Source: Tabrizicola flagellatus | GTDB taxonomy: Bacteria > Pseudomonadota > Alphaproteobacteria > Rhodobacterales > Rhodobacteraceae | Assembly: GCF_008271465.1 (NCBI RefSeq) | Contig: NZ_VMDU01000001.1 | Location: 434,001-498,000 of the forward strand | DNA: 64,000 nt | Reading direction: 5' to 3' | Shown: positions 45,742 to 52,425 of the stretch, piece after piece | Layout of the letters: every line of letters begins with the position of its first letter | Numbering within the stretch: the stretch's first letter is position 1 | Position numbers and translations under genes: made by a program | Notes under the pieces: generated by a model | Seen by the model: only the letters and a program-made list of their open reading frames with translations | The model's database searches: none | What the model was told of the DNA's origin: nothing

Positions 45742-45816
45742 TCCGGCGTAGCTCAGCGGTAGAGCAGTTGACTGTTAATCAATTGGTCGTAGGTTCGATC
45801 CCTACCGCCGGAGCCA
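45742..45816 (+). tRNA. tRNA-Asn (anticodon GTT)
   Basis: A 75-base cloverleaf: acceptor TCCGGCG paired with CGCCGGA, D arm with GCTCAGCGGTAGAGC, anticodon loop CTGTTAA (anticodon GTT), T arm with GGTTCGATCCC, encoded CCA. Confidence 0.95.
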
Positions 45817-46119
45817 AAAAATCCTGATCTAATTGGATATTGAACGGGCGACGTCTCCCTCCGCCCGGTTTTGTCCATGTCATGCGCTCCTTCGCTGGCA
45901 GAGAGGACAGGAGACGCGCCTCGCCGACGTCCGCCGCCGCAGTCTGCCCCGGCCACGCGCGCCATCCCGGATGCACCCTTGGCCTCGGATCCGGCCGCAC
46001 CGAAAGTTTTGCGGTTGATGCGACCGAACCACCCGTCCAGACTGGTCCGACAGATCTGCTGTTTTCCGGCCCGATCCCGACCTTGCCGGGACCAACTCTT
46101 CCGCCGCATCATTTTTGTA
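45817..46119. other. Noncoding stretch between tRNA-Asn and the RND operon
   Basis: I see no convincing gene in the roughly 300 bases. Short open frames on both strands lack ribosome sites and coding character. The first 30 bases after the tRNA are A/T-richer and may terminate it. The stretch leads into a promoter at 46120. Confidence 0.4.
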
Positions 46120-46147
46120 TTGTCATAGCTTTGAAATTTACTATATG
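46120..46147 (+). promoter_or_regulatory. Predicted promoter and possible operator of the RND-SQR operon
   Basis: TTGTCA, a 16-base spacer and TATATG lie 32 bases before the adaptor ATG. TCATAG and CTATATGA form an imperfect inverted repeat 12 bases apart across the spacer, a possible site for the operon's ArsR-type regulator. The surrounding 40 bases are distinctly AT-rich. Confidence 0.5.
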
Positions 46148-46179
46148 AACCCCATCAGACAAACGCGAGCGCGAATCCG

Positions 46180-47193
46180 ATGTCCCGACCCCTTCTCCTG
46201 TCTAGCCTGCTGGCTGTTGCCGTTATCTCCGCCGGTTCGCTCCTGGCCGAGCCGTTCACCGTCACAGCAAAACCCGTCACGGTCTGGAAATCCGTCTACG
46301 GCAGCGTCGAGGCGCGCGACCGGATCCCGGCCCGCTCGCGCATCGGCGGAACGCTGGTCGAACTGTCGGTGAACGAAGGCGACCTGGTGACCGCCGGTCA
46401 GGAGATCGCCCGGATCGTCGATGACAAGCTGGACTTCCAGCTTGCCGCGATCGCCGCGCAGCGCGAGGCTCTGTCGGCCCAGCTTGCCAATGCCGAGGTC
46501 GACCTGAAACGTGGCGAGGACCTTCTGAAGAACGGCGTGACCACGACGCAGCGGGTGGATGCCCTTCGCACCCAGGTCGATGTGCTGAAGGGCCAGATCG
46601 CCGCGCTGGTCGCCCAGGCCGACGTCGTCACCCAGCAGGCGAAGGAGGGTGTCGTGCTGGCGCCCGTCGCGGGCCGGGTGCTGGACGTGCCGGTCACCAA
46701 GGGCGCGGTCCTGATGCCGGGCGAAATCGTGGCCGTGGTCGGCGGCGGCGGCACCTATCTGCGTCTGGCCGTGCCCGAACGCCATGCCACCGCGCTTGAT
46801 GCCGGCGACAAGATCCGCATCACCGAAGGCGGCGAGGACCGCGAGGGCACGCTTGCCCGCGTCTATCCGCTGATCGAGGGCGGCCGCGTTACCGCCGATG
46901 TCGAGATCGACGGTCTGCCCGACAGCTTCGTCGGCAAGCGCATGCTGATCAGCCTGCCCGTCGCCGAACGCGAGGCCCTTCTGGTGCCCGAAACCACGCT
47001 CGTCACCCGCGCCGGGCTCGATTTCGTCGGCCTCAAGACGCCTGAAGGCGTGGCCCTGCGCAGCATCGTGCCGGGCGAGACCCATGTGATCGACGGCATC
47101 CCGATGGTCGAGGTCGTCACCGGCCTTGCGGCGGGCGATGTCGTGCTGCCTGCTTCCGAGGCGACCCATGCCGCCGAGGTGGGCCATGAGTGA
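46180..47193 (+). CDS. RND efflux periplasmic adaptor subunit (HlyD/MFP family)
   Basis: 337 residues. A signal peptide (LLLSSLLAVAVISAGSLLAE) precedes a lipoyl half (IGGTLVELSVNEGDLVTAGQ), an alpha-helical hairpin (residues 85-150), the second lipoyl half (APVAGRVLDVPVTKGAVLMP), and beta-barrel and membrane-proximal domains. It links an RND pump to the outer membrane. It overlaps the pump gene by eight bases. It is the first gene of the SQR-type operon. Confidence 0.88.
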   Translation: MSRPLLLSSLLAVAVISAGSLLAEPFTVTAKPVTVWKSVYGSVEARDRIPARSRIGGTLVELSVNEGDLVTAGQEIARIVDDKLDFQLAAIAAQREALSAQLANAEVDLKRGEDLLKNGVTTTQRVDALRTQVDVLKGQIAALVAQADVVTQQAKEGVVLAPVAGRVLDVPVTKGAVLMPGEIVAVVGGGGTYLRLAVPERHATALDAGDKIRITEGGEDREGTLARVYPLIEGGRVTADVEIDGLPDSFVGKRMLISLPVAEREALLVPETTLVTRAGLDFVGLKTPEGVALRSIVPGETHVIDGIPMVEVVTGLAAGDVVLPASEATHAAEVGHE

Positions 47194-50100
47194 GCCGAGG
47201 ACCAAGCACCCGCTGGGGATCGCGGGCGGGCTGACCAAGGCCTTCATCAACTCGGCCCTGACCCCCCTCTTCATCCTCGCCGCCCTCGCTGCCGGCCTCG
47301 TGGCGCTGGTCTCGCTCCCGCGCGAGGAAGAGCCGCAGATCTCGGTGCCGCTGGTGGACATCCATGTCCAGGCCCAGGGCCTCAAGGCGGTGGATGCGAC
47401 GAAGCTCGTGACCGAACCGCTCGAGGTGCTGGTCAAGGGCATCAATGATGTCGAACACGTCTATTCCTCGACCCGCGACGATGCGGCGATGGTGACGGCA
47501 CGGTTCGTCGTCGGCACGCGGTCGGAGGATGCGATCCTGCGCGTCCACGACAAGATCCGCGCCAACATGGACGTGATCCCGGTCGGCATCCCCGAACCGC
47601 TGATCGTGGGCCGCGGCATCGACGACGTGGCGATCCTGACCCTGACCCTGTCCTCGGAAACCGCCACCGCGAACGACCTGACCCGCATCGCCCGCACGCT
47701 GCAGACCGAGGTCGCCAAGACCGAGAACGTGGGCCTGACCTACCTCGTCGGCGACGCGCAGGACGCGATCCGCATCGAACCCGACCCCGACCGCCTGGCG
47801 CTGTACGGCGTGACGCTGCAACAGCTTGCCGGCAAGGTCGCCCAGGCCAACCGCACGCTGAACACGGGCAAGCTGCGCGATCAGGGCCAGATGGTGGACC
47901 TCGTCGCCGGCGAGACGCTGACCGCGCCGGCCGAGGTGGCGAACCTCCTGCTCACCACCCGCGACGGGCGTCCGGTCTATGTCTCGGACGTGGCCACCGT
48001 GGCTTACGTCGAAAACACCAGCGACACCATCGTCTCGCACATGGCCAAGACCGGGGACGGCAAGGTCGTCTCGGGTCCGGCGGTGACGCTGGCCATCGCC
48101 AAGCGTGCCGGTGCGAACGCGGTGGTCGTGGCCGAAGAGGTGCTGCACCGCGTCCATGAACTGGAACCGAAGCTGATCCCGGACGGCGTGGACATCACCA
48201 TCACGCGCGACTATGGCGAGACGGCGAACGAAAAGGCGAACGAACTGCTGTTCCACCTCGGCCTCGCCACCGTCTCGATCATCGCTCTGGTCCTGTTTGC
48301 CATCGGCTGGCGCGAGTCGCTCGTGGTGGCCATCGTGATCCCGGTGACGATCCTGCTGACGCTCTTTGCCGCCTGGATCATGGGCTACACGCTGAACCGG
48401 GTGTCGCTCTTCGCACTGATCTTCTCGATCGGGATCCTCGTCGATGACGCGATCGTGGTGATCGAGAACATCGACCGCCACTGGGGCATGGACCGCCGCA
48501 AGCCGCGCCTGCAGGCCGCCATCGAGGCGGTGGCCGAGGTCGGCAACCCCACCATCGTCGCCACGCTGACCGTGGTCGCGGCGCTTCTGCCGATGCTGTT
48601 CGTCTCCGGCCTGATGGGTCCCTACATGTCGCCCATCCCGGCCAATGCCAGCGCCGCGATGATCTTTTCCTTCTTCGTCGCGGTCATCATCACCCCCTGG
48701 CTGATGGTCAAGATCGCCGGCCGCGCCGACATGCGGGAACATGCCCATGACGACATCCACGGCGGCCATCACGGCGGCTGGCTGGAAAAGGCCTACTCCG
48801 CCGTCGCGCGGCCGGTGCTGAAGACCAAGGGGCGCAGCCTGGCCTTCCTTCTGGTCACCGCCGTCCTGTCCTTCGGCTCGCTCGCGGCGCTCTACACCCG
48901 CGACGTGACAGTGAAGCTCCTGCCCTTCGACAACAAGTCGGAACTGTCGGTGGTGATCGACCTGCCCGAGGGCTCCTCGGTCGAGGCGACCGACCGCGTT
49001 GCCCGCGACGTGGCCGATGTCGTGATGCAGCTGCCCGAAGTGACCTCGGTCCAGACCCATGCCGGCACGCCCGCGCCGTTCAACTTCAACGGGCTGGTGC
49101 GCCACTACTACTTGCGCAAGGAACCGCAGCTCGGCGAGGTGGCGATCAACCTGACGCCCAAGACCGACCGCGACCGGGCCAGCCACGACATCGCGCTCGA
49201 CATCCGCCAGCGTCTGGCCGACCTGCCGGTGCCGGAAGGCACCAGCCTGAAGGTCGTCGAACCCCCGCCGGGGCCGCCGGTGATCTCGACCCTGCTGGCC
49301 GAAGTCTATGGTCCCGATGCCGAAACCCGGCGCGAAGCCGCCCGGATGATCCGCCAGGCCTTCGAGTCCGTGCCCTTCATCGTCGATGTGGACGACAGCT
49401 TCGGCACCCAGGCCCGCCGCCTGCGCGCCACGATCTCGACCGACGATCTCGACTTCTACGGCGTGCAGGAACAGGACGTGTTCGACACGCTCGCGCTTCT
49501 GAACGGCGGCCAGACGGTGGGCTACTCGCACCGCGGCGAGGGGCGCCTGCCGATCCCGCTGGTCGTGGGGCGCGACAAGTCCGACCGGGTCATGGACGAA
49601 CGCTTCCTGACCACGCCCATTCCGGCCAACGCCCTGCCCGGCGCGCGCGGGGTGGTGGAACTCGGCGACGTGATCCGCGTCTCCGAGGATCAGGCGAGCT
49701 ATCCGATCTTCCGCCACAACGGCCGCGATGCCGAGATGGTGACGGCCGAACTGGCCGGCGATTTCGAAGCGCCGCTCTACGGCATGCTCGCCGTTGCCGA
49801 CCAGATCGAGAAGATGGACTGGCCCGAAGGCACCAAGCCCACGATCGCGCTGCACGGCCAGCCCGAGGACGAAAGCAAGGTCACGCTTCTGTGGGACGGC
49901 GAATGGGAAGTGACCTTCGTCACCTTCCGCGACATGGGGGCGGCCTTCGGGGTGGCGCTCCTGGGCATCTACATCCTGGTCGTGGCCCAGTTCGGTTCGT
50001 TCAAGCTGCCGCTCGTCATCCTCACACCGATCCCGCTGACCTTCCTGGGGATCATCTTCGGCCACTGGCTGTTCGGGGCACCGTTCAGCGCCACATCGAT

Positions 50101-50431
50101 GATCGGTTTCATCGCGCTCGCGGGCATCATCGTGCGGAACTCGATCCTGCTGGTCGATTTCATCCGCCACGCCACGCCAGAGGGCCAGTTGCCCAGCGTC
50201 GCCACCCTGATCGAGGCCGGCGCGATCCGCTTCAAGCCGATCCTCCTGACCGCCATCGCCGCCATGATCGGTGCGGTGGTGATCCTGGCCGACCCGATCT
50301 TCCAGGGCCTCGCCATCTCGCTCTTGTTCGGTCTGCTCAGCTCCACGCTGCTGACCGTGCTTGTCATCCCGGCGATCTACCGCGTCTTCCGGACGGCATC
50401 CGGCAGCACGGCGCCCGCCACCACTGCCTGA
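47186..50431 (+). CDS. RND-family efflux permease
   Basis: 1081 residues, the AcrB-family size. TM1 (LTPLFILAALAAGLVALVSL) and twelve predicted helices; TM4 reads ILVDDAIVVIENIDRHW with the proton-relay Asp pair. Two large periplasmic domains are present. A His-rich cytoplasmic loop (HAHDDIHGGHHGG) near residue 520 is unusual and could bind metal. ATG 47186 overlaps the adaptor's stop. The cargo is unknown; the neighbouring SQR-like and persulfide-sensor genes suggest sulfur-stress products. Confidence 0.88.
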   Translation: MSEPRTKHPLGIAGGLTKAFINSALTPLFILAALAAGLVALVSLPREEEPQISVPLVDIHVQAQGLKAVDATKLVTEPLEVLVKGINDVEHVYSSTRDDAAMVTARFVVGTRSEDAILRVHDKIRANMDVIPVGIPEPLIVGRGIDDVAILTLTLSSETATANDLTRIARTLQTEVAKTENVGLTYLVGDAQDAIRIEPDPDRLALYGVTLQQLAGKVAQANRTLNTGKLRDQGQMVDLVAGETLTAPAEVANLLLTTRDGRPVYVSDVATVAYVENTSDTIVSHMAKTGDGKVVSGPAVTLAIAKRAGANAVVVAEEVLHRVHELEPKLIPDGVDITITRDYGETANEKANELLFHLGLATVSIIALVLFAIGWRESLVVAIVIPVTILLTLFAAWIMGYTLNRVSLFALIFSIGILVDDAIVVIENIDRHWGMDRRKPRLQAAIEAVAEVGNPTIVATLTVVAALLPMLFVSGLMGPYMSPIPANASAAMIFSFFVAVIITPWLMVKIAGRADMREHAHDDIHGGHHGGWLEKAYSAVARPVLKTKGRSLAFLLVTAVLSFGSLAALYTRDVTVKLLPFDNKSELSVVIDLPEGSSVEATDRVARDVADVVMQLPEVTSVQTHAGTPAPFNFNGLVRHYYLRKEPQLGEVAINLTPKTDRDRASHDIALDIRQRLADLPVPEGTSLKVVEPPPGPPVISTLLAEVYGPDAETRREAARMIRQAFESVPFIVDVDDSFGTQARRLRATISTDDLDFYGVQEQDVFDTLALLNGGQTVGYSHRGEGRLPIPLVVGRDKSDRVMDERFLTTPIPANALPGARGVVELGDVIRVSEDQASYPIFRHNGRDAEMVTAELAGDFEAPLYGMLAVADQIEKMDWPEGTKPTIALHGQPEDESKVTLLWDGEWEVTFVTFRDMGAAFGVALLGIYILVVAQFGSFKLPLVILTPIPLTFLGIIFGHWLFGAPFSATSMIGFIALAGIIVRNSILLVDFIRHATPEGQLPSVATLIEAGAIRFKPILLTAIAAMIGAVVILADPIFQGLAISLLFGLLSSTLLTVLVIPAIYRVFRTASGSTAPATTA

Positions 50432-50449
50432 TCAGAAGAGGAGACTGAA

Positions 50450-51736
50450 ATGGCACATGTCGTCGTACTGGGCGCCGGACTTGGCGGCGCCATCATGGCC
50501 TACGAGCTGAAGGACCAGCTGCGTCCCGAGGACAAGGTGACGGTCGTCACCAAGGATCCGCACTATCACTTCGTGCCCTCGAACCCCTGGATCGCCGTGG
50601 GCTGGCGCGACCGCGAGGACATCACGGTGGACCTCGCCCCGACGATGAAGAAGAAGGGGATCGACTTCATCCCCGTCGCGGCCGAGAAGCTCCACCCCGA
50701 GGAGAACCGGATCGAGCTGGTGGACGGAAAGTCCGTCAGCTACGACTACCTCGTCATCGCCACCGGGCCGGAACTGGCCTTCGACGAGATACCGGGCTTC
50801 GGCCCGCATGGCGGCTATACCCAGTCGGTCTGCCACATCGACCATGCCGAGGCGGCGAAATCGGTGTTCGAGAAGCTGGTGGCCAACCCCGGCCCGGTCA
50901 TCATCGGCGCGGCGCAGGGCGCGAGCTGCTTCGGCCCGGCCTACGAGTTCCTGTTCATCCTGGAAACCGCGCTCCGCCGCGCCAAGGTGCGCGACCGCGT
51001 GCCGATGACCTTCGTCACGCCCGAGCCCTACATCGGGCACCTCGGCCTCGACGGGGTGGGCGACACCAAGGGCCTTCTCGAAAGCCAGATGCGCGAGAAG
51101 CACATCAAGTGGATGACCAACACCCGGATCAAGAAGGTCGAGGAAGGCCACATGTTCGTCGAGGAAATCAACGACGATGGCACGGTGAAGGCCGAACGCG
51201 ACCTTCCCTTCGCCTTCTCGATGATGCTGCCCGCCTTCCGCGGGATCAAGGCCGTCTCGGGGATCGAGGGCCTCTCGAACCCGCGCGGCTTCACCATCGT
51301 GGACAAGCACCAGCAGAACCCGAAATACAGGAACATCTTCGCGGTGGGTGTCTGCGTTGCGATCCCGCCGATGGGCCCGACCCCCGTGCCCTGCGGCGTG
51401 CCGAAGACCGGCTTCATGATCGAATCGATGGTCACCGCGACCGCCCACAACATCGGCAACCTCGTGCGCGGCAAGGAGCCCGACTCGGTCGGCACCTGGA
51501 ACGCCGTCTGCCTGGCCGATTTCGGCGACGGGGGCATCGCCTTCGTGGCCCAACCCCAGATCCCGCCGCGCAACGTCAACTGGTCGTCGTCGGGCAAATG
51601 GGTCCATCTGGCCAAGGCCGGTTTCGAGAAATACTTCATCCGCAAGCTGCGGAAAGGCACCTCTGAACCCTTCTACGAAAGCCTCGCACTGAAAGTGCTG
51701 GGGATCGACAAACTCAAGGAAACCACGAAAGGATAA
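50450..51736 (+). CDS. Sulfide:quinone oxidoreductase-like FAD flavoprotein
   Basis: 428 residues. FAD-binding VVVLGAGLGGAIMAYEL at the N-terminus, a second flavin segment YDYLVIATGPELAFDEIPGF near 105, and a C-terminal membrane-associating helix region. Cys160 (GAAQGASCFGPAYEF), Cys302 (VGVCVAIPP) and Cys315 (PVPCGVPKTGFMIE) are candidates for the redox/polysulfide site of SQR enzymes. SQR oxidises sulfide to sulfane sulfur and reduces quinone. AGAGGAG precedes the ATG. It is 18 bp after the RND gene. Confidence 0.8.
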   Translation: MAHVVVLGAGLGGAIMAYELKDQLRPEDKVTVVTKDPHYHFVPSNPWIAVGWRDREDITVDLAPTMKKKGIDFIPVAAEKLHPEENRIELVDGKSVSYDYLVIATGPELAFDEIPGFGPHGGYTQSVCHIDHAEAAKSVFEKLVANPGPVIIGAAQGASCFGPAYEFLFILETALRRAKVRDRVPMTFVTPEPYIGHLGLDGVGDTKGLLESQMREKHIKWMTNTRIKKVEEGHMFVEEINDDGTVKAERDLPFAFSMMLPAFRGIKAVSGIEGLSNPRGFTIVDKHQQNPKYRNIFAVGVCVAIPPMGPTPVPCGVPKTGFMIESMVTATAHNIGNLVRGKEPDSVGTWNAVCLADFGDGGIAFVAQPQIPPRNVNWSSSGKWVHLAKAGFEKYFIRKLRKGTSEPFYESLALKVLGIDKLKETTKG

Positions 51737-51740
51737 GTCC

Positions 51741-51944
51741 ATGACCCTCGATGCTGCCGTTCTGCGCTTTGCCGGCGTGATGGTGCTGCTCAGCGTCCTG
51801 CTGACCGTCTATGTCTCGCCGCTCTTCGTCTGGTTCACCGTGTTCATCGGGCTGAACCTGATCCAGTCGTCCTTCACCGGCTTCTGTCCGGCCGCTGCGG
51901 TGTTCCGCAAGCTCGGGGTCAAGAAGGGCTGCGCCTTCGAATAG
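51741..51944 (+). CDS. DUF2892 inner-membrane protein
   Basis: 67 residues with two hydrophobic segments (FAGVMVLLSVLLTVYVSPLF and WFTVFIGLNLIQSSFTGFCP) and two cysteines (GFCPAAAV and KKGCAFE). The DUF2892 module often accompanies rhodaneses and sulfur genes (YgaP-like). It is four bases after the SQR-like gene and within the same operon. It may anchor a sulfur carrier at the membrane. Confidence 0.82.
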   Translation: MTLDAAVLRFAGVMVLLSVLLTVYVSPLFVWFTVFIGLNLIQSSFTGFCPAAAVFRKLGVKKGCAFE

Positions 51945-51953
51945 GAGAAGATG

Positions 51954-52277
51954 ATGGCAGAGATCCTGGAAGGCTTCGGCGGCACCGCCGAACAGGCCAG
52001 CCGCGCCGTGGCGCTTCTGAAGTCGCTGTCGCACGAGGGTCGGTTGCAGATCCTCTGCCTGCTTGTCGATGGCGAGATGAACGTCACCCAGCTGGCCGAG
52101 GCCCTGCGCGCCAGCCCCGTCACGGTCTCGCAGCAGCTGATGCGGCTGCGGGCCGAAGGGATCGTGCAGACCCGGCGCGAGGGGAAAAGCGTCATCTACA
52201 GCCTGGCGCAGGAAGAGGTGGCCAGGATCGTCACCGCACTGCGCGACACCTTCTGCCGCGCCAGGATCGCAAGCTAA
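51954..52277 (+). CDS. ArsR-family persulfide-responsive repressor (SqrR/BigR-like)
   Basis: 107 residues from ATG 51954, chosen over ATG 51951 for better spacing from AGGAG. Winged-helix HTH (MNVTQLAEALRASPVTVSQQ). Cys35 (RLQILCLLVDGE) and Cys101 (TFCRARIAS) are the only cysteines and lie 66 residues apart. That equals the Cys41-Cys107 spacing of R. capsulatus SqrR and the Cys42-Cys108 spacing of BigR, whose cysteines form a tetrasulfide or disulfide. It should derepress the operon under sulfide or persulfide stress. It is the last gene of the operon. Confidence 0.85.
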   Translation: MAEILEGFGGTAEQASRAVALLKSLSHEGRLQILCLLVDGEMNVTQLAEALRASPVTVSQQLMRLRAEGIVQTRREGKSVIYSLAQEEVARIVTALRDTFCRARIAS

Positions 52278-52314
52278 CCCAGCATCTGCCCGCAGGGCGG
52301 CATGATCTGCTGCC

Positions 52315-52351: not shown

Positions 52352-52425
52352 GCGGGTGTAGCTCAATGGTAGAGCAGAAGCTTCCCAAGCTTACGACGAG
52401 GGTTCGATTCCCTTCACCCGCTCCA
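52352..52425 (+). tRNA. tRNA-Gly (anticodon CCC)
   Basis: A 74-base cloverleaf: acceptor GCGGGTG paired with CACCCGC, D arm with GCTCAATGGTAGAGC, anticodon loop TTCCCAA (anticodon CCC), T arm with GGTTCGATTCC, encoded CCA. Confidence 0.93.

Follow-up and report, generated by a model that had tools for sequence, protein, structure and literature searches.

Genes and features of the locus

We describe here a five-gene operon of Tabrizicola flagellatus (Alphaproteobacteria, Rhodobacterales) in which an efflux pump of the resistance-nodulation-division (RND) superfamily is encoded together with a sulfide:quinone reductase (SQR), a small DUF2892 membrane protein and an ArsR-family regulator. The operon lies in a stretch of 64,000 nucleotides, referred to below as the window, that covers positions 434001 to 498000 of contig 1 (NZ_VMDU01000001.1) of a 3.6 Mb genome in 42 contigs. 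The genes are tightly packed in one row on the plus strand between 46180 and 52277: the adaptor and permease reading frames overlap by 8 nt, and the gaps 3′ of the permease are of 18, 4 and 6 nt (Table 1). A tRNA-Asn gene (45742–45816) and a tRNA-Gly gene (52352–52425) flank the row. Pfam supports all members (ACR_tran at 503 bits, HlyD_3, Pyr_redox_2, YgaP-like_TM and HTH_5), and the family matches together with the coordinates bear out the tight array that an initial annotation, made from the letters alone, had described.

The array is more than a chance arrangement, since the same order (adaptor, RND permease, SQR, DUF2892, ArsR) recurs in 12 of 81 pump loci, the window counted. These 81 loci comprise the window and 80 relatives, mostly Rhodobacterales by record title, with an identical contig (L071) included. 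Relatedness of loci and genomes is uncorrected in every count given in this article.

Table 1. The operon and its predicted operator, in window coordinates
Feature	Position	Strand	Basis
Predicted operator ATAGCTTTGAAATTTACTATATGA, imperfect palindrome 5′ of the operon	46125..46148		matrix trained with the window left out, rank 1
RND periplasmic adaptor (MFP), 337 aa	46180..47193	+	TIGR01730 RND_mfp, 115.6 bits (cut-off 94.9); HlyD_3
RND permease, 1081 aa	47186..50431	+	PF00873, 503 bits; AcrB-type fold
His-rich cytoplasmic linker of the permease, about residues 514-530 (by homology)	48725..48775	+	low-confidence model segment; orthologue variation
SQR, A. ferrooxidans / A. aeolicus group, 428 aa	50450..51736	+	phmmer to solved SQRs
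DUF2892 / YgaP-like transmembrane protein, 67 aa	51741..51944	+	PF11127, 42.9 bits (cut-off 25.3)
ArsR regulator, SqrR/BigR type, 108 aa	51951..52277	+	closest solved relative SqrR; Cys pair

The regulator has two Cys residues, Cys36 (52056–52058) and Cys102 (52254–52256). They are 66 residues apart, as the initial annotation had pointed out in likening the protein to SqrR and BigR, and they align with the Cys pair of Rhodobacter capsulatus SqrR. Both are present in all 25 members of the regulator cluster. The best solved relatives are the 6o8k/13ct chains (listed as ArsR family regulator; E 1.6e-23), which we take to be R. capsulatus SqrR; HlyU, BigR (Biofilm growth-associated repressor) and YgaV are also among the first seven rows of solved structures. 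The genome encodes two more SqrR-like ArsR proteins at E ≤ 1e-18, one an orphan (L124:8211-8588) and the other in the sox cluster (L125:5554-5919). In both, the first Cys is retained and Asp stands in place of the second, which leaves the window's regulator as the single two-Cys protein of these three; a fourth match is weaker (E 6.7e-7). The sox-cluster protein, with its Asp, may respond to a different signal or to none.

The flavoprotein is an SQR, judged by its full-length match to a solved SQR and by the retention of the catalytic Cys. phmmer aligns it with 3sz0 over residues 2–425 (E 1.2e-156) and with 3hyv (E 6.6e-112), the enzymes of A. ferrooxidans and A. aeolicus, and Cys128, Cys160 and Cys354 align with Cys of the solved A. 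ferrooxidans SQR. We take this group to be the type I-like SQRs.

The DUF2892 protein carries Cys49 and Cys64, and its GxCPAA motif is present in 26 of 26 aligned sequences, the window counted. A second YgaP-like transmembrane gene of the genome (L225:7941-8150) adjoins a Crp-type regulator and is about 3 kb from the operator-bearing rhodanese gene described below.

A predicted operator and a predicted three-unit regulon

A palindrome search of the regions upstream of eleven close loci gave a score of 148 at width 24, against 35–37 for shuffled copies, although relatedness inflates such scores. A position weight matrix was trained on the upstream regions of the ten relatives, with the window excluded. 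Of 63,977 positions in the window the best by this matrix is the palindrome of Table 1, 31 bp 5′ of the adaptor start (19.5 bits); the next best reaches 2.5 bits when the overlapping hits at 46109–46140 are excluded. A consensus scan of 45980–46240 for a sigma70 promoter gave no match.

The operator is a variant of the deduced SqrR site, ATTC-N8-GAAT (PMC9774250): its half-site is approximately ACATCTT, whereas that of SqrR is ATTC. The SqrR pattern itself is absent from 46000–52300 at up to one mismatch, and the variant palindrome is found there instead. The recognition helix of the regulator has changed as well. It starts with [S/N]PV in 11 of 11 sequences (the window and its ten relatives), against QAA in SqrR, and the altered helix may explain the altered half-site. 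An SP at this position is also seen in L019, which is outside the group of eleven.

With up to one mismatch allowed, an IUPAC form of the operator matches the genome four times and its reversed control once. The match at the operon itself is exact; two others lie 22 bp 5′ of a rhodanese gene and 10 bp 5′ of the gene for thioredoxin 2 (Trx2). Eleven related genomes were searched, seven of which have close orthologues of the rhodanese and ten of Trx2. The matrix finds a site 5′ of all seven rhodanese orthologues, with p from 0.001 to 0.017 against a background of 998 upstream stretches in which those of the ten training loci were counted twice; a weaker second rhodanese match (L235) has no site. 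At Trx2 the best hit precedes the start by 10–11 bp in all ten orthologues and has p < 0.03 in nine of them, the weakest sites being those of L244 (poor, p 0.10) and L236 (weak, p 0.028). Over 11 Trx2 promoters the arms of the palindrome are conserved at 0.83, as opposed to 0.59 for its centre and 0.60 for the flank. The operon, the rhodanese and Trx2 are thus a predicted regulon of three units. In R. capsulatus also, a rhodanese is a target of SqrR (PMC9995734).

Other palindromes of the genome deserve mention. One of the form ATAGCA-N12-TGCTAT, between the genes at the soxW and soxX positions (L125:7801-7824), scores 7.2 bits by the operator matrix and is a possible further target of the regulon. 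Near-identical palindromes ATTCC(T/C)TCGAAGGAAT occur soon after gene ends at L127:3666, L128:3540 and L130:3373, and once in genome G951; their letters fit the SqrR pattern, yet they look like another element. Exact ATTC-N8-GAAT occurs at six places in the genome against one for the reversed control. None is at the operon, and an inspection by eye of the nearby genes (first 50 residues of each) showed none of the places to precede a recognisable sulfur-responsive gene; they were set aside.

SqrR-type sites at pump loci unlinked to SQR

The 150 bp 5′ of the adaptor were searched for ATTC-N8-GAAT at the pump loci. A locus was called unlinked if it had no SQR within four genes, and some of the 58 unlinked loci do have DUF2892, ArsR or sox genes nearby. 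L071, the identical contig, was omitted as it has the same upstream sequence as L069, and L031, L054 and L061 were omitted for want of a predicted adaptor. It should be noted that the pattern was first seen in these same loci and then confirmed as published; the test is therefore controlled but not independent.

The exact site is present at 28 of the 58 unlinked loci, and at 44 of them with up to one mismatch, against 8 and 28 of 534 control promoters, respectively. All but one of the eight exact control hits come from the pump's own site, viewed from the divergent gene; the exception precedes a metallo-beta-lactamase gene. Dinucleotide shuffles have the site in 0.3% of cases (exact) and 6.7% (up to one mismatch), and AT-rich control promoters have it exact in 7 of 183. 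With other spacers (2–15), 0–3 of the unlinked loci match exactly and 0–15 at up to one mismatch. In five genomes with the site, its copies number 12–31 per genome, against 1–4 for the reversed control.

Linkage of the pump to sulfur genes

In the 81 loci, SQR, DUF2892 or ArsR genes were sought from five genes before to six after the pump. At least one is present in 35 loci and all three in 13. A sox cluster lies beside the pump in 8 loci and SoxYZ/MBL genes in 3, which brings the loci with any of these neighbours to 38. Several loci stop at contig ends, so that missing neighbours are in part missing sequence. One representative each of the sox and SoxYZ/MBL neighbours was verified by family search; SoxT, SoxS, SoxV and SoxW are named from gene position, and SoxX alone passed a model.

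Three wider samples were searched, of 387 genomes for the class, 397 for the phylum and 219 for the family. In the class sample the pump is found at 57% identity or more in 37 genomes, the window's included, and a further match at 44% is a paralogue. Forty alphaproteobacterial loci were read with longer flanks; 36 come from the class sample and 4 from the family sample, and two of the 40 have no predicted adaptor. At least one of SQR, DUF2892 and ArsR is within four genes of the pump in 32 of these, and at least two in 26, in diverse arrangements. Both Cys are present in 22 of 26 pump-linked ArsR proteins of the class set. Rhodanese, Trx2-like and TauE genes recur at these loci as well (clusters of 11, 3 and 3, with one each checked).

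In the phylum sample the pump, at 56% identity or more, is restricted to alphaproteobacterial genomes, and a tree of 94 sequences unites the alphaproteobacterial pumps in a single clade of 70 tips with a support of 0.99. Twenty distant homologues from outside the class (43–46%) were hand-picked from a longer list, tblastn being used for five. A sister RND clade of long proteins among them serves as a negative control: SQR, DUF2892 or ArsR genes are neighbours in 0 of its 14 loci. (In 12 of the 13 loci L201–L213 of that clade, whose pumps are of 1134–1328 aa, a gene of 122–150 aa is found two positions ahead of the pump.) The six homologues of normal length, L214–L219, have DUF2892 nearby in 6 of 6 and ArsR in 5 of 6. 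The pump–DUF2892–ArsR module may thus be older than the Alphaproteobacteria.

In the family sample the pump (at least 63% identity) is in 54 of the 219 genomes, the window's SQR type in 35 and both in 24 (Fisher p 1.5e-9, with relatedness uncorrected); this SQR accompanies the pump in 24 of its 54 genomes and occurs in 11 of the 165 others. The pump therefore does co-occur with its neighbours, a point on which the initial annotation had made its proposal depend.

Because of the operator, the regulon matches, the SqrR-type sites at unlinked loci, and a linkage of 32 of 40 loci against 0 of 14 in the sister clade, we regard the pump as very probably one of the regulated components of a sulfane-sulfur response.

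Known systems

The initial annotation saw a sulfide/persulfide-response operon with an RND pump as its unexpected member. The operator and the linkage uphold the first part, a SqrR/BigR-type operon to which the pump truly belongs, but the view of the pump as unexpected is not supported, as RND precedents exist (PMC12423496, PMC5358917). According to a survey, RND pumps appear to be among the targets of two-Cys ArsR regulators, along with sqr, pdo, rhd and TauE genes; this is a statement in the text, and section 2.1 of that paper gives neither operator nor pump clade (PMC12423496). In Azospira suillum PS, Dsui_3440-3443 encode SQR, RND pump, RND adaptor and a protein of unknown function in one operon, which was picked out by transposon fitness data and is highly expressed during H2S oxidation; a separate DUF2892 gene is up about tenfold (PMC5358917). 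The likeness to the window's operon is one of gene content (SQR, pump and adaptor). The gene order differs and, unlike in the window, no ArsR is named in the published passage on that operon (PMC5358917).

The R. capsulatus SqrR regulon likewise combines a two-Cys ArsR with sqr and a rhodanese (rcc01557) as targets (PMC9995734). Unlike SqrR, the window's regulator is encoded by the last gene of its operon, which also includes the RND pump and DUF2892. The bigR operons of Xylella and Acinetobacter and ygaVP of E. coli have the regulator family in common with this operon, and the window's DUF2892 protein corresponds to the YgaP-like transmembrane domain (PF11127). The bigR operons, as described, carry a persulfide dioxygenase with YeeE/YedE transporters or Blh rather than an RND pump (PMC7315123, PMC9995734). 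The MexR–mexAB-oprM system offers an RND pump under a sulfane-sulfur-responsive repressor, as proposed here, but MexR is of the MarR family and mexAB-oprM is a general drug pump (PMC11211675).

The mexAB-oprM operon is not known to contain SQR, and Azospira suillum is a betaproteobacterium. The operon type has precedents in print; to these the present analysis adds the operator, the predicted three-unit regulon, the SqrR-type sites at unlinked loci and the clade-level linkage with a negative control. Our searches of open-licence papers turned up none that names the cargo of such a pump and none that shows a sulfane-sulfur cargo for any RND pump.

What the pump may export

Taken together, the locus is best read, in our view with moderate confidence, as a self-regulated sulfane-sulfur (persulfide/polysulfide) stress operon with an RND pump. 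Several results weigh against such a reading. The regulator scores below the cut-off of the NCBIfam BigR equivalog NF040642 (82.8 vs. 155 bits) and is therefore not filed as BigR in NCBI's sense, and 4 of the 26 pump-linked ArsR proteins of the class set are without the second Cys. The fourth genomic match to the operator, between carA and yqeY, looks like chance. At the 19 SQR-linked loci, ATTC-N8-GAAT is exact in 1 and has one mismatch in 2, most of these loci bearing the variant operator rather than the SqrR site; at three of them (L032, L034 and L083), and at L067, neither is well matched upstream of the adaptor. As a class-wide signal the SqrR site was dropped, being weak in the wider alphaproteobacterial set: 5′ of the adaptor it is exact in 0 of 38 loci and has one mismatch in 4 of 38, and in related intergenic regions the counts are 3 of 42 exact (control 0 of 112) and 7 of 42 at up to one mismatch (control 9 of 112). 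There are 46 of the 81 loci, some on short contigs, with no SQR, DUF2892 or ArsR nearby, and 30 of the 54 pump genomes are without the window's SQR type. One genome of the same genus (G170, locus L095) has an adaptor–RND–DUF2892–ArsR operon with an upstream sequence much like the window's operator and no SQR in the operon, nor in the genome at E ≤ 1e-60. The cargo of the pump need not, therefore, come from SQR; the core module looks like adaptor, pump, DUF2892 and ArsR, with SQR as a frequent partner. Finally, deletion of the whole SQR–RND operon in Azospira left the rate of H2S oxidation unchanged (PMC5358917).

A sulfane-sulfur cargo remains the simplest and likeliest reading, and metal export is disfavoured. 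Taken by itself, the proposal that the cargo is a sulfane-sulfur compound is tentative, with somewhat less than an even chance of being right. More tentative still is its extension to the family, namely that in Alphaproteobacteria a distinct clade of RND pumps, this permease included, is devoted to moving sulfane sulfur (polysulfide, persulfide, nascent zero-valent sulfur) out of the cell envelope. The scarcity of Cys in the pump (none in 79 of 81 orthologues and in 30 of 40 of the class set) was considered as a sign of a persulfide cargo and dropped: paralogous RND proteins are equally Cys-poor, with 3, 0 and 0 Cys in the comparison with the 81 orthologues and 0, 0, 0 and 1 in the class set, while the long sister clade has 4–9.

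The most serious alternative is a general exporter, multidrug-like or protecting the envelope, that has come under a sulfane-sulfur sensor and whose cargo is a toxic organic compound made or enriched under sulfide stress. We think this unlikely, though less so than the other alternatives. The permease is a member of the RND superfamily (AcrB/AcrD/AcrF) by its ACR_tran domain, its modelled AcrB fold and the Asp pair of TM4; D420/D421 in TM4 and R984 in TM10 are conserved in the orthologue alignments. With a mean pLDDT of 68 the structure model is no better than fair, and its fold matches were used just to separate AcrB-like from metal pumps. The best are AcrB, AcrD, BpeF, CmeB and OqxB, multidrug pumps that would suit a general exporter, and MexR and MarR do tie sulfane sulfur to drug-efflux genes (PMC11211675). 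The 30 pump genomes without the window's SQR type point the same way. The permease, however, stays below the cut-off of every NCBIfam model that it matched, the multidrug ones included (TIGR00915, 275 of 940 bits; NF033617, 429 of 1250; NF000282, 341 of 1250). More to the point, a general pump is not expected to track sulfur genes. This one is linked repeatedly, in varied arrangements, to SQR, DUF2892, ArsR, rhodanese, TauE and sox genes, its sister clade to none of these first three. This SQR or SoxX is encoded in 51 of the 54 genomes that have the pump and in 108 of the 165 that do not.

Export of metals or metal-sulfide complexes is improbable. The Azospira authors suggest it for RND pumps induced in sulfide oxidation (PMC5358917), the initial annotation listed metal-sulfur products among the possible exports, and the His-rich segment of the permease would fit it. 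In the permease model this segment lies between the TM6 helix and an amphipathic helix, and by homology it is a cytoplasmic linker, off the export path. Its His count varies from 1 to 5 in the 81 orthologues (at least 3 in 68). Being cytoplasmic and variable in sequence, it was dropped as a metal site and is no evidence of metal export. The heavy-metal CusA/CzcA model TIGR00914 gives the permease 253.5 bits for a cut-off of 701, and no heavy-metal pump is among the best 50 of its 323 fold matches (E ≤ 0.001).

Equally doubtful is a primary role in thiosulfate and sulfur oxidation (Sox), in which the pump would move a Sox-related sulfur intermediate and SQR would have joined the operon later. 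The sox and SoxYZ/MBL neighbours at 8 and 3 of the 81 loci speak for it, as does G170, which has SoxX while keeping pump, DUF2892 and ArsR without SQR. SoxX is over its cut-off in 42 of 54 pump genomes, but the association is weak (104 of 165 others, p 0.03), and where SoxX is missing from a pump genome (12 cases), this SQR is present in 9. That the genes are chance neighbours and the regulator does not control the pump is very improbable, in spite of the 46 loci with no SQR, DUF2892 or ArsR nearby, given the operator 5′ of the first gene, the recurring gene order and the SqrR-type sites at pump loci with no SQR nearby.

Proposed mechanism and significance

A sulfane-sulfur response with the pump as one of its outputs would work as follows. 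In its reduced form the two-Cys ArsR, presumably the protein that binds the operator, would repress the operon, and with it the rhodanese and Trx2 genes elsewhere in the genome. As sulfide is oxidised and persulfides accumulate, C36 and C102 would become bridged by sulfur, by analogy with SqrR, and the repressor would leave. SQR, the DUF2892 membrane protein and the RND adaptor and permease would then be made. SQR at the membrane would convert sulfide to zero-valent sulfur, and the pump, driven by protons and working with an outer-membrane channel provided in trans, would expel a sulfane-sulfur product from the periplasm or the outer leaflet; candidates are polysulfide, a low-molecular-weight persulfide or other zero-valent sulfur that partitions into the membrane. 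Rhodanese and thioredoxin would clear the sulfane sulfur remaining inside.

RND pumps take their cargo from the periplasm and the outer leaflet, as established for AcrB, and SQR is thought to act on the periplasmic or outer-leaflet side in R. capsulatus. Discharge outside the cell is plausible, since the cluster of L024 includes a gene for an outer-membrane channel.

To our knowledge, how cells dispose of the polysulfide or zero-valent sulfur that arises from sulfide oxidation is poorly understood. A concrete candidate for this task is a pump clade that keeps company with SQR, DUF2892 and SqrR-type regulators and in which SqrR-type sites are frequent even at loci with SQR absent from the vicinity. 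The three predicted promoters could serve directly in gel shifts and reporter constructs. With operator and recognition helix both changed, the regulator offers a natural example of a persulfide sensor whose DNA specificity has shifted. If the clade does export sulfane sulfur, it may be one route by which Alphaproteobacteria that oxidise sulfide dispose of what SQR and Sox produce.

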